46,849 bases of DNA. Source: a virus. The DNA lies in the IMG/VR virus record IMGVR_UViG_3300035703_000149, positions 1 through 46,849 of that record; one strand, given 5' to 3'. The notes under the pieces are model-generated. The model did no database searches, had not been told where the DNA came from, and saw nothing but the letters and a program-made list of their open reading frames with translations. The translations under genes and the position numbers were made by a program. Positions within the stretch are counted from its first letter, which is position 1; every line of letters begins with the position of its first letter. Of the stretch, positions 53-14,323 are shown one piece after another.

Positions 53-1471
53 TCACATGAGGTTCTTAACAGCGACTCTTCTGTAGTAACGGTTGGCGTT
101 AACATTAAGTTCACCGAGACCTTGAGTGGTTCCCTGTGCGAATGGGTTAGCAACCATACCGTAACGAGTCTTAAATCCAATTTTTGGTTGGAAAGTATTC
201 TCGCCAACGGCACGTACCATTTGGAGAGGTACATATGGGCAATAGAAGATACCAGCGTCATAGGGTGAAGAACCCTTATAACCAACAACATAATACTGGT
301 TGCCTGGGGTCGCATTAGCGGAAGTCAGGTTAGCAGCATATGGGTCAATGTAGACGCGATACTTACCTTGGAGGACACCAGCGAAGGTGTTACCAGTGTC
401 ATCAACATTGAGATTGGCGTTGAGTGCTGGGGTGTAGTCCAGAACACCAGCCATGGTTAGAGCGGAAGCAACGTCTGCTGAACAGAGGATGATGTTGCCC
501 TTTCCACGACGAGTTCTCTGAGCGATTGCATTAGCATCACGCTCGATTTGGAACAGAAGACCCTTGAACTTCTCAACTGACCAACGACCGTTTGAGTCAA
601 CGTCGAGGTCGAAGATACCAGCAGTAGCAACGTTTTGTGCTGCACCTTGCTCAGCAACCTTATAGATGGTTCTGATAACTTCGCGGTTGATTTCAGCAAG
701 AATCTCAGTTGAGAGAATGTTTGCTAATTCCGCTTCAGCATTCAGACCATGGATTGCCTTAAGGTCCTGAGCGAGCTCGAGTGAGTACTCAGCTTTCAGA
801 GCGCGTGACTTTGCAGTAACAGTGACTTTCTCGATTGAGAATGCCATCTGGTTGAAGTGACCCTCAGTGCCATCGCCAAGTGCTTCTGCTTGATCTGTAC
901 GTAGGCCCTGACCTACATCATAAGCAAGGTTGTCACCTGCGCCACCAACTGGGTTAAGAACTGCTGGGTTGCTACCAGATTGTGAAGTAGTACCCATACC
1001 AGAGGTAACTGAGGAGAAACCTGCGGTATTGTTGAAGTTTGCACTCTGACCTGAGAATGCAGTATCTGCTTCATTAAACAGTGCTTCGTCACCAGTTTGA
1101 TTGGTGTAACGTGAGCGCATTGCGAAGATAAGTCCAGTAGGACCACTCATTGGTTGAACGCCTGCCAGGTCATAAGCGACCAGGTTAGGCATTGAACGTC
1201 TGATGAGTGAAATAAGAACTGGATCGAAACCTGCAGTTGCGGTTGCTGAACCGGATGAAGTATATCCACCATTACCAACTGCGTTGGTTGGGGATTCCAT
1301 CAGGTTTCCAATACCACCTGAGTTGAATGCAGATTCTTCTCTTAAAAATTTTTCCTGGTTTTCGAGCAGGACAGCAGTTACAGCTCTTCTGTGTGAATCT
1401 TTGATTGGATCAAGACCCTCATAATTGAGGAGAGGTGCCCACTTTTCCTGCAGATGCTCGGAATGGAACAT
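53..1471 (-). CDS. 23: Major capsid protein gp23
   Basis: 472-aa major head protein of the T4 family, which forms the hexamers of the capsid shell. The N-terminus (EKWAPLL, EGLDPI, then LLENQEKF) follows the T4 gp23 pattern of KWKPLL, EGLPEI and FENQEK. The rest has the usual HK97-type capsid body and ends in an Arg-rich segment followed by Val-Ala-Val-Lys. T4 gp23 is 521 aa, so this is a shorter cyanophage-type version. A likely gp21 cleavage site of the form Leu-X-Glu is Leu57-Met58-Glu59, before Ser60. The start is chosen because it aligns with T4 and is preceded by an AAGG-type ribosome site. It is last in the operon after gp22 and is followed by a strong terminator. A separate vertex protein gp24 is not seen in this window. 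Confidence 0.97.
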   Translation of the reverse strand: MFHSEHLQEKWAPLLNYEGLDPIKDSHRRAVTAVLLENQEKFLREESAFNSGGIGNLMESPTNAVGNGGYTSSGSATATAGFDPVLISLIRRSMPNLVAYDLAGVQPMSGPTGLIFAMRSRYTNQTGDEALFNEADTAFSGQSANFNNTAGFSSVTSGMGTTSQSGSNPAVLNPVGGAGDNLAYDVGQGLRTDQAEALGDGTEGHFNQMAFSIEKVTVTAKSRALKAEYSLELAQDLKAIHGLNAEAELANILSTEILAEINREVIRTIYKVAEQGAAQNVATAGIFDLDVDSNGRWSVEKFKGLLFQIERDANAIAQRTRRGKGNIILCSADVASALTMAGVLDYTPALNANLNVDDTGNTFAGVLQGKYRVYIDPYAANLTSANATPGNQYYVVGYKGSSPYDAGIFYCPYVPLQMVRAVGENTFQPKIGFKTRYGMVANPFAQGTTQGLGELNVNANRYYRRVAVKNLM

Positions 1472-2756: not shown

Positions 2757-3410
2757 TTACAATGAATTTAAAAACTCATTGAATAGGGATAACTTATATT
2801 CTTCAAGGATACCCTCATCAACAAGAGTATTTATTCTACGTCTAGTGTTTTCTGCAACTTTTTCTCTTAACATGCCACCATCCCATACCCATTCCTTACC
2901 TTCCATAATTCCGTGAACAAAAGCATCGGGTGCAGAGGGATCAGCAACAATATCAGCAGCGGTTGCAAGCATGAAATCTTCACCAACTTCAGTATATCCT
3001 TCCCTGGTTGGTCTGACCGAACCAATACCACGGGAAGAAACTCCAAGAGTAACACCTTCTTTTAGAAGTGACTCTGCAATTTTTCCCATTGGTGTAGAAA
3101 GAATTTGTGCCTTACCAATGAAATTATTTCCTTCTTTATGGAGAGAAACAATTTTATGAGAAACCCTATCAAGGTTTACTGTTGGTCCATCTGGATGGCC
3201 AAGTTCTCCAAGAGCACGACCTTTGTTTACATATTGCTCAGTATAACGCTTCACTTCTCTTTCCATTACAGGCATACGATACATTCTGCCGTTCCTGTTT
3301 ACAACTTCAGTTTGTAAAAAAGGTCCTTGAATATAGAGAGTTTTCTTACCGTTTACATTTTCGGTAATAACTTCTACTGATTCGATTTCTTCGGTAATGA
3401 GTTTCATCAT
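2757..3410 (-). CDS. 21: Prohead core protease gp21
   Basis: 217-aa serine protease of the T4 prohead (herpesvirus-assemblin-like fold), which degrades the core and trims gp23 at Ile/Leu-X-Glu sites. T4 landmarks are all present: GPFLQTEVVNRNGR near residues 29-42, the catalytic His in GELGHPDG (His72), the Ser motif GVSSRG (Ser125/126), and DPSAPDAFV, which matches T4 GPSAPDAWV. T4 gp21 is 212 aa. There are two adjacent ATG codons (3410 and 3407). The first overlaps the upstream TGA in an ATGA arrangement, indicating translational coupling, and either could be used. Its neighbours gp22 and gp23 are its substrates. Confidence 0.95.
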   Translation of the reverse strand: MMKLITEEIESVEVITENVNGKKTLYIQGPFLQTEVVNRNGRMYRMPVMEREVKRYTEQYVNKGRALGELGHPDGPTVNLDRVSHKIVSLHKEGNNFIGKAQILSTPMGKIAESLLKEGVTLGVSSRGIGSVRPTREGYTEVGEDFMLATAADIVADPSAPDAFVHGIMEGKEWVWDGGMLREKVAENTRRRINTLVDEGILEEYKLSLFNEFLNSL

Positions 3411-4002: not shown

Positions 4003-5562
4003 TTAATCCTCAATAAATGTCACACCACAACTTGCAGTTTGCATAACAGCACTAGAAGAAACTGCAACTGCAAATTTTGTTTGAGGTGGAAGTACAAGTC
4101 TTAGATTATCTAGGTCAAAATGATCGGGAGCACCAGATGTAAGGTTAAATACTGCGATTGGTGTTCCGCTAGTGATTAAACATTCAGTTGGTGAATATGA
4201 TGATGAGTTTCCAATCGGTGTAAAATCAAGTGGTGTTGAATATGTTGGATCAATATACAAATAAAGAGTGCAGGGGTTTGATGCAGATGCAGTTGTTCCA
4301 CCAGTAAGTCTTTTAAGTATAATTTCTCTAGTATTAATTTTATTATTTGCAATTAAATTATTTTTAATTGTAAGTAAATGATAAATTACATCCGTTGTAT
4401 TCATACCACCACTTCTTGTATGGGTAGCAGCAACTGGATATGTTGTAGTACTAATAATGCCTTCAATTGCACCCATCATTGATGCACCAGATACTGTTAC
4501 CCCAACTCCAGAACTTCCATTTAGTTCTGCAGCAACATATCCAATTTTAAGAGATGGATTGTCTAAATGAACATCGTTATTTCTATTTGAATAATGAATA
4601 TGATGAATGGGCATCATATCACCCGTTAATGGATTTTCAATAGCAAATCTCATTTCACCAACACCTAACCAGCGGAAGTTGATTTGGTAAACATTTAATT
4701 TTGTTGGATCTAACGTAACTCCTGATGGATTTGCAGTTCCACCAACACCTGTTAATGTATCAAAATTCCATTCATCTTGATATATCCAATTACTTGAATG
4801 TGCTATTCCTGTCTGTGCTGTTGTTGATGTTGCTACAAGAGTTCCAGAACTTGCAATAGAAAATGTTCCTGTTTTTGCACCAACACTAGTTGCTAAAAAC
4901 TCAACTTTAGAATCTTGATAATCAACAATCCATCCAGGAAATGTATTAGTACCAATTCCAGTTGCATTGTGTGTTGTTATGCCAGATGGAATACTTACAG
5001 TTTTAGCAACTCCTGCAAGAGTAACAGTTATATTTTCTGTTCCGGATGCTGCTGATGTGATGGTAAATCTATGAATATGCGCTTTACCGCCATTTTCACG
5101 AAGAATTCCGAATTGACCCGTCGTATTATATCCAACTTGAAGTGCTTGTTCTTGTGCAAAAAAACCAGCTCTTTGTGTATATCCAGTTACAATTCCAGAA
5201 AATTGTGCAGTAAACCTTGCAAGAGCACCTTGCCCTGGACGATATCTTACTGCTCTTTTTGAACGAATAACACTATACCCATAAGCACCAGTTCCAGATG
5301 ATGCTTTCATCAAAGTGTTTGATGTTACAATCCCAGTTCCAGAGGTAAATGTTTCAAACTTATTTGTTTCCAATCCATACAATGCATCAAGTTGCAAAAC
5401 AGGTGTTACTGGAACGGCAATACTTTCTCCAAATGCACTATTTGCACTTGCTGTTCCATTGCATCCATCAATATTGCCATATCTGTCGGCACAGATATTA
5501 ACTTCAAATAAACTTCTTTCTTGATTTAAATAATCTTGTGTAGTTTTATTCCACTGAGCCAT
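4003..5562 (-). CDS. Putative virion surface or head-associated structural protein
   Basis: 519-aa protein, Ser/Thr/Gly-rich with predicted beta structure. A central block (YRPGQGALARFTAQF near residue 107, then FGILRENGG near 150) resembles a family I recall in T4-like cyanophages and some algal viruses. It combines an Arg-Pro-Gly-Gln motif with aromatic beta strands and is generally annotated only as structural or hypothetical. The C-terminal half (IGYVAAELNGSSGVGVTVSG) is similar in style. It lies between the 106-aa capsid-targeted protein and the 185-aa protein, with two bases between it and the upstream stop, so it is co-transcribed from the gp67 promoter. The position implies a capsid exterior or vertex component, but this is inference. 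Confidence 0.85.
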   Translation of the reverse strand: MAQWNKTTQDYLNQERSLFEVNICADRYGNIDGCNGTASANSAFGESIAVPVTPVLQLDALYGLETNKFETFTSGTGIVTSNTLMKASSGTGAYGYSVIRSKRAVRYRPGQGALARFTAQFSGIVTGYTQRAGFFAQEQALQVGYNTTGQFGILRENGGKAHIHRFTITSAASGTENITVTLAGVAKTVSIPSGITTHNATGIGTNTFPGWIVDYQDSKVEFLATSVGAKTGTFSIASSGTLVATSTTAQTGIAHSSNWIYQDEWNFDTLTGVGGTANPSGVTLDPTKLNVYQINFRWLGVGEMRFAIENPLTGDMMPIHHIHYSNRNNDVHLDNPSLKIGYVAAELNGSSGVGVTVSGASMMGAIEGIISTTTYPVAATHTRSGGMNTTDVIYHLLTIKNNLIANNKINTREIILKRLTGGTTASASNPCTLYLYIDPTYSTPLDFTPIGNSSSYSPTECLITSGTPIAVFNLTSGAPDHFDLDNLRLVLPPQTKFAVAVSSSAVMQTASCGVTFIED

Positions 5563-5564
5563 TA

Positions 5565-5885
5565 TTAATCAATCCATTCTAATTTTGATGGGTGATATCG
5601 TTTTGCGTTTTTAATGTTTAAGTTCTTTTCTGTTATTGGGTAAATTTGGTGAACAACTGCTCCAGGATAATTTGCTTGTAGTTGTTCTCCCAATTCCTTT
5701 TTAGATGGAAGTCCATTCTTGGTAATCATTTCCAATCTATAAAGACTTCCGTTCCACATTACATCGGCAACATATTCTTCACCAACTTGTTGTGGTTGCT
5801 CTGGTTGAGACCCAATGTAAAGATTTCCTGTGAAATCACCAGCAATATTAACTGATTCTGAGATAAATTGCTTGAAAGATTTCAT
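5565..5885 (-). CDS. Predicted internal head protein with capsid-targeting peptide
   Basis: 106-aa protein starting MKSFKQFISES. This matches the 10-residue capsid-targeting sequence of T4 internal proteins (MKTYQEFIAEA in IPI/IPII/IPIII): Met-Lys, an aromatic residue at 4, Phe7-Ile8, Glu10. Ile8-Ser9-Glu10 fits the gp21 cleavage rule Ile/Leu-X-Glu, so the mature protein would start at Ser11. The rest (residues 34-90) is a small domain with a Trp-Asn-Gly turn followed by LPSKKEL and NYPGAVVHQIYP, also present in the 582-aa protein at 12575-14323. The start at 5885 is preferred over an upstream in-frame Met at 5906, because it falls two bases past the gp67 stop and gives the targeting peptide at the true N-terminus. 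It occupies the T4 gene 68 position. Function as an internal or ejected protein is inferred. Confidence 0.88.
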   Translation of the reverse strand: MKSFKQFISESVNIAGDFTGNLYIGSQPEQPQQVGEEYVADVMWNGSLYRLEMITKNGLPSKKELGEQLQANYPGAVVHQIYPITEKNLNIKNAKRYHPSKLEWID

Positions 5886-5886
5886 A

Positions 5887-6039
5887 TTACTCCTCTTTCT
5901 GGCCAAACATACTCATTGCTACTGTGGGACGAAATTCATCGATCTTTTCTGCCGATCTGGCGAAAAGTAGTTCTTTAATCTTGTCGCTAATCTGAGACGG
6001 TGATTCATCAGATGCAATCATATCCATAAGATCATCCAT
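5887..6039 (-). CDS. 67: Prohead core protein gp67
   Basis: 50-aa protein starting MDDLMDMIASDESPSQISDK. It aligns with the N-terminal half of T4 gp67 (MEGLIEAIKSNDLVAARK, then FAEAMAARTIDLIKEEK). The shared pattern is Met-Asp/Glu-x-Leu, Met-Ile/Ala-Ile, then a helix containing Leu-Phe-Ala and Ala-Arg-Ser/Thr. The acidic tail of T4 gp67 is reduced to Gln-Lys-Glu-Glu here. Gene order (20-67-21) is as in T4. Ile21-Lys-Glu and Ile33-Asp-Glu are possible gp21 cuts. An AGGT ribosome site precedes the ATG, and a TATAAATA late octamer lies 25 bases further up. It is a scaffold-core component expected to help set head shape. Confidence 0.88.
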   Translation of the reverse strand: MDDLMDMIASDESPSQISDKIKELLFARSAEKIDEFRPTVAMSMFGQKEE

Positions 6040-12574: not shown

Positions 12575-14323
12575 TTAATTACAATTCCAGCGACGAAGTG
12601 CCTTGTTAATATTGCTGTCGGGATCTCTTGCAGTTTTTGTTGAGGTAAGTTTTGATTTCATTCCAGACATACGACGACAAAATGATTTACGACGTTCTGC
12701 TCTTTTACCTGAAGGATTTTTTTCTGTAACTGCAGTTTGTAATTTTGATCCTGGATTTTCTTTGCGATATGCATCAACCGCTTTTTGACTTAATCCAGCA
12801 GTTTTGTCCTGACGATTAACCTTTTGCCAATCTTCACCAACCTCAAATTGTTCTCCATAAGGTTTTACATATTTTTTACTTGGTCCAGGATGCCCAAAGC
12901 TTCCTCCCTGAGGTCCAGATACTTGAATTAGAGGTTGTCCTGGTTGGAGTTCTGAAACTGAATGATAAAGAACTACAGAACCTGGATAAACTTTCTGGAG
13001 TTCATCTGAAATTTCTTTTTTGCTTGGAAGTTTGACTTGAGGGAAAAACATTTTAATTGAGTAATATTTTCCTCTCCAAGAAAGAGTAACCCCTACAATA
13101 TTTCCAGTTTGTGCTTGTAAACGTGTTGCTTCTTCTACCTGAGATTTGAATCCTTTAATTGGTTCAGGATCAATTAAATCTACTATTTCTGCAAAAGTAT
13201 TTCCATCTGCATCCTCAATAGTTACATCTTCTTTCTTTACACAACGATTATATTTTTTTCCAAAAAGTGTCTGAGTTCCTTTCTTCTTGTATCCAGGCCA
13301 ACAGTTCATTTCATCCACTACATTATCTGTTATTTTTTGTTCCTCCATTTCACCACTTGCAATATAATCAGCCGCAGTATCAATATAATCAGCTGCTTTG
13401 GTGATTTTTGATTGTACCCACGCTTCAAGATTGCCCTCACCCTTACCAACTTTCTGTTCTAATCTTTTAAGAGCATCGTGAATGGTTTTTAATTCAGATC
13501 TTGCCATTGAATATTCTTCATCCTTTACGGAAACTTTATCCCACGCTTTTTCCCCGTAAGAACATTGAGATCTTGTCTCTCTTTTATTGCATAGTGGACA
13601 ATATCTTTCTTCTTCGTGCATGTGAGTTTCCTCTGATTTAGTTCCCCAGTTTGCGGCACCAACTTTACGACATTTAACCAATGCCCCTGATGCATAAGCA
13701 CTGGGCCATACATCATATCTAGATTTTACTTTATGATAGCAAGCATCCTTTTTACCACTACCTTTACCTGGTTTATCCTTTACTTCTTGTAAATCCATTT
13801 CCTCAGTTCTTACGTTAGTTGGTTTTGCTCCACCCGTTTTTTGTGGTTGATTTGGGTCCTGTCTATTTTTTCTTCTTCTTGCTCTTTCCTCTTCTTCGTC
13901 AGATAAATTTGACGACATTTTAGAACTACCACATTTTGGAGTTGAAGTTTGTCCTGGTTGACGAGCGCATGGTTTCCCTGCCCACTTTCCACCCAACTGA
14001 ACCCAACCTCTTTTACCATCAGATGACTTTGATTTGTTAAACCAATCATGAAGACCTTCATCTCCAGATTTGGTTTCTTCTTTTACATCTTTAAATTTTT
14101 TATGATGCTTTTTAGCATCTGCTTCCATCTTTTTCAAACGAGTGTAGTAATCTGGAATTTCATCAAGATGTTGAAGAGCAATGTCTCTCGCAAGTTCATG
14201 ATCTTTTGTATGTTCATGCTCAATTGGTTCACCCATATCAAGTTGCTTTTGTACAAAAGAAACATCAAGACGATGCTTCTTTGCAATTTGCTCAACTGTT
14301 TTATGTGTCTTAAATTTGGGCAT
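12575..14323 (-). CDS. Modular Cys-rich protein of unknown function between gp16 and gp17
   Basis: 582-aa protein built from short, separable modules joined by charged linkers. Residues 1-70 (KDHELARDIALQHLDEIPDY) resemble DUF5661. At 88-175 there is a Gly-Trp-Val / GKPCARQPGQTSTPKCGSSK segment. At 190-228 is CYHKVKSRYDVWPSAYASGA followed by VKCRK and AANWG. At 242-254 is CPLCNKRETRSQC, a possible zinc site. At 268-325 there is a helical hairpin with YSMARSELKTI and AWVQSKITKAADYIDTAADY. At 341-361 a Cys pair brackets WPGYKKKG. At 400-460 is a LPSKKEI / YPGSVV domain shared with the 106-aa capsid-targeted protein. At 499-582 is RRKSFCRRMSGMKSKLTSTK ending RRWNCN. Similar modules occur in cyanophages and some giant viruses as I recall, unverified. 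The gene starts in a TAATG overlap with the 51-aa gene. Function unknown. Confidence 0.88.
   Translation of the reverse strand: MPKFKTHKTVEQIAKKHRLDVSFVQKQLDMGEPIEHEHTKDHELARDIALQHLDEIPDYYTRLKKMEADAKKHHKKFKDVKEETKSGDEGLHDWFNKSKSSDGKRGWVQLGGKWAGKPCARQPGQTSTPKCGSSKMSSNLSDEEEERARRRKNRQDPNQPQKTGGAKPTNVRTEEMDLQEVKDKPGKGSGKKDACYHKVKSRYDVWPSAYASGALVKCRKVGAANWGTKSEETHMHEEERYCPLCNKRETRSQCSYGEKAWDKVSVKDEEYSMARSELKTIHDALKRLEQKVGKGEGNLEAWVQSKITKAADYIDTAADYIASGEMEEQKITDNVVDEMNCWPGYKKKGTQTLFGKKYNRCVKKEDVTIEDADGNTFAEIVDLIDPEPIKGFKSQVEEATRLQAQTGNIVGVTLSWRGKYYSIKMFFPQVKLPSKKEISDELQKVYPGSVVLYHSVSELQPGQPLIQVSGPQGGSFGHPGPSKKYVKPYGEQFEVGEDWQKVNRQDKTAGLSQKAVDAYRKENPGSKLQTAVTEKNPSGKRAERRKSFCRRMSGMKSKLTSTKTARDPDSNINKALRRWNCN

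Follow-up and report, generated by a model that had tools for sequence, protein, structure and literature searches.

ORF106 (positions 5565-5885, minus strand) is a 106-aa gene of the window, by which is meant the whole stretch of 46,849 nucleotides analysed here, an IMG/VR virus record from a T4-like cyanophage in which gp17 to gp23 are recognisable. Its position, its length and its start, MKSFKQFISES, agree exactly with the preliminary description, both in the ORF list and in the sequence read directly; the ATG lies at 5885 and the stop codon at 5567-5565. A TTG seven codons upstream is an alternative start, but the ATG is preferred because it is preceded by a GAGGAG Shine-Dalgarno site (5890-5895, minus strand) and adjoins the stop codon of the upstream 50-aa gene, which ends one base ahead of it. 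In a profile search ORF106 matches PHROG 1742, a family with no assigned function, essentially over its full length (residues 1-100 of 106, E 4.6e-42). Relatives at E <= 0.1 were retrieved by tblastn from 139 phage records, all of them cyanophages, and the family was encountered here only in cyanomyoviruses.

The 50-aa gene upstream (5887-6039, minus strand; PHROG 14164) occupies the gp67 slot and owes this label to its position and size; a profile test of low power found no similarity to T4 gp67. Two bases downstream of ORF106 begins the gene of a 519-aa virion structural protein (4003-5562, minus strand; PHROG 1645, E 6e-31), which is homologous to S-SZBM1 gp086. The preliminary description had placed ORF106 between gp67 and gp21, in the position of T4 gene 68. 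The upstream part of this location stands, as ORF106 directly follows the gp67-slot gene, but the 519-aa gene and a 185-aa gene intervene before the gp21 prohead protease (2757-3410, minus strand; Pfam Peptidase_S77, E 1.3e-36), the predicted cutting enzyme.

The analogy with gene 68 holds only in the clade of the window. Of 123 distinct sequences, 76 have the gp67-slot gene as their upstream marker, 34 have a DUF6321 relative and 11 have gp16, which places the family on the gp16/gp17 side (DUF6321 or gp16) in 45; in annotated relatives, ORF106 and the structural gene lie as a pair between gp16 and gp17. In 115 of the 123 the next gene after the ORF106 family member is that of a PHROG 1645 structural protein; what stays stable is the unit of ORF106 and a structural gene rather than the gene-68 position. 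ORF106 also differs from T4 gp68 in sequence, with no similarity detected in a comparison of low power (hhalign probability 0.2 percent). Homology of ORF106 to gp68 was rejected, given the missing hhalign signal; its position between gp67 and gp21 is not conserved either.

The N-terminus and body of ORF106

In the T4 internal protein IPIII the first 10 residues are enough for targeting; mutagenesis links residues 4 and 7 to targeting and residues 8 and 10 to processing, and the gp21 protease cleaves after L/I-X-E (review of T4 head assembly, PMC9026906). The start MKTYQEFIAEA, which the preliminary description had quoted for the T4 internal proteins, is indeed that of IPI and IPII/III. Residues 1-10 of ORF106, MKSFKQFISE (5856-5885, minus strand), follow the same rule of aromatic residues at 4 and 7, I or L at 8 and E at 10, with F4, F7, I8 and E10. 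The predicted gp21 cut falls after Glu10 and before Ser11 (codon 5855-5853), at I-S-E|S.

The leader is kept in all 114 distinct orthologues assembled from phage records and IMG/VR contigs, with F/Y at position 4, F at 7, I/L/M at 8, E at 10 and S/A at 11. Positions 7 and 10 are invariant, position 8 is M in six proteins, and position 11 is A once and otherwise S. Conservation of Phe7-Ile8-x-Glu10 had been singled out earlier as the point on which a capsid-targeting reading should be judged, and none of the 114 breaks the rule if I, L or M is allowed at position 8. Some of the IMG/VR search seeds contained the leader itself; in the tblastn of phage records, which needs no such seed, almost all of the listed alignments begin at residue 1. 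Across 75 genes of equal length, pN/pS is 0.10 for codons 2-11, 0.20 for codons 12-34 and 0.26 for codons 35-106, so that purifying selection is strongest, and constraint greatest, in codons 2-11. Conservation within the family does not stop at residue 10 but continues to around residue 24, and hence does not on its own mark a cut site at Glu10. For PHROG 1742, to which ORF106 belongs over residues 1-100, the reading of a capsid-targeting leader is new.

Cleavage would leave a mature chain of 96 residues (residues 11-106; 5568-5855, minus strand). An AlphaFold2 model of ORF106 (mean pLDDT 71.5) predicts a short helix at residues 4-8, followed by a flexible stretch through the cut site whose low confidence is what would be expected of a flexible, cleavable leader, and a strand-strand-helix-strand domain at about residues 36-83. 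I/L-x-E sites occur at 10, 67 and 86, the second of them inside a predicted helix; the two extra sites set ORF106 apart from T4 IPI and IPII/III. Nor is the mature chain basic, as its pI of 5.62 is acidic compared with 9.56 and 9.65 for T4 internal proteins. The domain recurs in the 582-aa DUF6321 protein of the window (E 8e-8), and the virion protein ORF29 of S-SCSM1 contains it too (E 8e-6). In the DUF6321 protein (12575-14323, minus strand) it occupies residues 389-451, after a leader-like IKGFKSQVEEA. Sequence and fold searches of the PDB with the ORF106 body returned nothing significant, and BFVD matches beyond cyanophage proteins, such as those to inhibitors of phage RNA polymerase type (phage RNA polymerase inhibitors, E about 0.08), were not strong enough to be used.

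The predicted cleavage machinery finds support in the gp21 gene of the window and in a gp23 with a candidate L-M-E|S site. This gp23 (53-1471, minus strand) carries the candidate, IGNLME|SPTNAVG, near residue 59, at the place equivalent to the T4 gp23 cut, FGSFLTE|A; the corresponding sequences are GSFLAE|APTNAVG in S-SCSM1 and GLLTE|APTQAVG in S-CREM2.

The leader on unrelated proteins

A DNA pattern encoding MKx[FY]xx[FY][hydrophobic]xE, with the reversed pattern as control, was run against 15 whole phage genomes chosen via membership in the ORF106 family. It gave 35 matches compared with 1 for the reversed pattern. Thirteen belong to the ORF106 family, and the search for other genes sharing this start, suggested in the preliminary description, was rewarded with the remaining 22. 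Three of these lie in T4, namely two internal protein genes, which serve as a positive control, and gene 61.1, a hypothetical protein of 54 aa (NC_000866.4:18966-19130, minus strand) that begins with MKTFKEFIKE. When the ATG is removed from the pattern the count rises to 70, and half of these matches are preceded by ATG compared with about 1 in 64 expected. A further 15 contigs yielded 35 matches versus 2 reversed, 15 of the 35 being ORF106 family members. P-SSP7, the sole non-T4 phage scanned, gave 0 matches in 45 kb.

The bodies behind the leader are unrelated to ORF106, except for one second ORF106-type copy (Sf-FS3, L101). They comprise an NMNAT/cytidylyltransferase, DUF6321, a SAM lyase (PF23780, E 1.4e-14), a kinase, one weak GNAT match and a number of strongly basic proteins. 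At 80 of 80 IMG/VR loci, found with search seeds that lie outside the leader, the cytidylyltransferase starts with the leader, as it does in 12 of 13 isolates, the exception being S-CAM9.

Several of these loci deserve separate description. In one genome four tandem leader genes, with starts between G010:79736 and 81555 (minus strand; L344, G010:78000-83500), encode unrelated, strongly basic bodies, one of them weakly GNAT-like, in an arrangement that recalls T4, whose genes for internal proteins also lie side by side. Leader-bearing SAM lyase relatives are present in contigs related to the window (L329, L330; L351:3837-5081, minus strand), and the SAM lyase of a window-related contig shares 55% identity with residues 1-172 of the SAM hydrolase found in S-CREM2 virions; a SAM lyase packed in the head could counter restriction on entry. 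A basic leader protein (L343:1501-1962, plus strand) weakly matches PHROG 2667, 'internal head protein', over its first 26 residues (E 0.006). Its likeness to an ADP-ribosyltransferase was seen by eye and set aside, as Pfam and PDB searches gave nothing. A profile search of ORF106 itself found no match to PHROG 2667.

Published virion proteomes connect the leader with the mature particle. The strict leader matches of S-CREM2 are a SAM hydrolase, an APH-like kinase and a cytidylyltransferase, and all three appear in the mass spectrometry table of 52 virion proteins (PMC10665884), as do ORF13 and ORF136, which carry close variants of the leader. A looser scan added three weak matches, none of them in the table, which brings the loose count to 5 of 8, cytidylyltransferase included, compared with 52 of 221 annotated features overall. 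The S-CREM2 Cas9-like protein has the leader motif at residue 19. S-SCSM1 has only two leader genes, of which one was detected by mass spectrometry; its NMNAT (ORF91) combines the leader with presence in the virion. The S-SZBM1 cytidylyltransferase, which starts MRFRQFIIEA, is in the published virion table of that phage, and S-SM1 virions were found to contain a related protein, T4-GC190 (PMC3037559). These NMNAT/cytidylyltransferases (T4-GC190) and the S-CREM2 SAM hydrolase and kinase share the leader and the host group with ORF106 but, unlike it, have recognisable enzyme domains and were detected in virions.

In this respect cyanophages resemble T4, whose internal proteins likewise combine one leader with unrelated bodies. 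A T4-type capsid-targeting leader is the best reading of the ORF106 N-terminus because the pattern occurs at gene starts much more often than chance would allow and heads unrelated bodies, several of which are found in virions. The preliminary description had proposed such a leader and, behind Glu10, a site of gp21 type; this proposal gains support from the orthologues and from these unrelated virion proteins.

Fate of ORF106 and alternative readings

Overall, we consider it probable that ORF106 is a cyanomyovirus protein with a T4-type capsid-targeting leader and a gp21-type site. Residues 1-10 would bind the prohead core, mainly via F4 and F7, and this binding would draw the protein inside the prohead, where gp21 may cleave after Glu10 and free the 96-residue chain; the peptide itself is shared with other cyanophage proteins of unrelated body and would be a common tag. 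Prohead targeting and the predicted gp21 cleavage are likely, judging from sequence. The mature chain probably either persists in few copies or disappears as the head matures; present data do not support the view that ORF106 itself is retained abundantly and ejected.

Two relatives bear on the last point. In S-SCSM1 the counterpart is ORF30, which is 77% identical to ORF106 and annotated as hypothetical between neighbours annotated as virion proteins; going by the GenBank labels, it is not reported among the 45 proteins detected in virions (PMC9602691). In S-SZBM1 the orthologue is gp085, equated with S-SZBM1_191 through the numbering and the lengths of its neighbours; it is absent from the published table of 30 virion proteins, while S-SZBM1_190, its downstream structural partner, is reported. 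The published data for both relatives thus give no indication of many copies in the mature virion. It is therefore doubtful that ORF106 matches the T4 internal head proteins in every respect, as a protein packed in high copy number whose chain starts at Ser11 after trimming, leaves the head along with the DNA on ejection and acts in the host. Its leader does match that of the T4 internal proteins in its length of 10 residues, in all four mapped positions and in the I/L-x-E site, and other leader-bearing proteins do occur in virions. However, the T4 internal proteins are basic and number about 360 copies (PMC9026906), whereas the body of ORF106 is unrelated and acidic, bears two further I/L-x-E sites, and is unreported in two virion proteomes that do include S-SZBM1_190 or other direct neighbours. 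The virion presence and ejection considered in the preliminary description are weakened accordingly.

A tentative alternative, in our view similarly unlikely, makes ORF106 a component of the prohead core that is targeted by its leader, undergoes gp21 cleavage at several sites and is gone once the head is mature, in the manner of gp68, which is listed at 0 copies in mature T4 heads (PMC9026906). Both the missing orthologues in the S-SCSM1 and S-SZBM1 proteomes and the sites at 10, 67 and 86 would fit such a fate, but ORF106 showed no similarity to gp68 in the low-power comparison, its site at 67 is placed in a predicted helix, and its gene position is not conserved. More improbable is a role as assembly partner or chaperone of the adjoining PHROG 1645 structural protein, with the leader serving another binding function. 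The gene pair remains intact in both genome arrangements, directly joined in the great majority of sequences, and in S-SZBM1 the partner is a virion protein while the ORF106 orthologue goes unreported; this role, however, leaves the same leader on unrelated virion proteins unexplained. That the N-terminal likeness reflects chance or plain conservation within the family, with no role in sorting, is very improbable, since the continuation of the conserved stretch past residue 10 and the leader-containing seeds are outweighed by the strong excess of matches at gene starts compared with the reversed and start-free patterns, the reuse on unrelated bodies and the 80 cytidylyltransferase loci, whose search seeds did not include the leader.

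Returning to the targeting leader as the preferred reading, we lean towards the view that in cyanomyoviruses one T4-type leader is a general loading tag for varied, exchangeable proteins that are packed in the head and carried into the host, with ORF106 as one conserved user. The SAM lyase, the kinase, NMNAT, the Cas9-like nuclease, small basic proteins and ORF106 are put forward as its users with the same modest preference. A literature search, which covered few subscription papers, found no paper on a leader of this kind in cyanophages. The recurrence of a single tag across many cyanophage proteins, published virion enzymes among them, is of greater interest than ORF106 itself. Cyanophage virion proteomes report a SAM hydrolase, a kinase and an NMNAT with no stated route of entry into the particle. 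A T4-type leader common to them offers a testable route, and sequence alone would then suffice to predict which proteins are packaged. A single, simple sorting signal may thus explain the loading of proteins that cyanophages carry into cyanobacteria.
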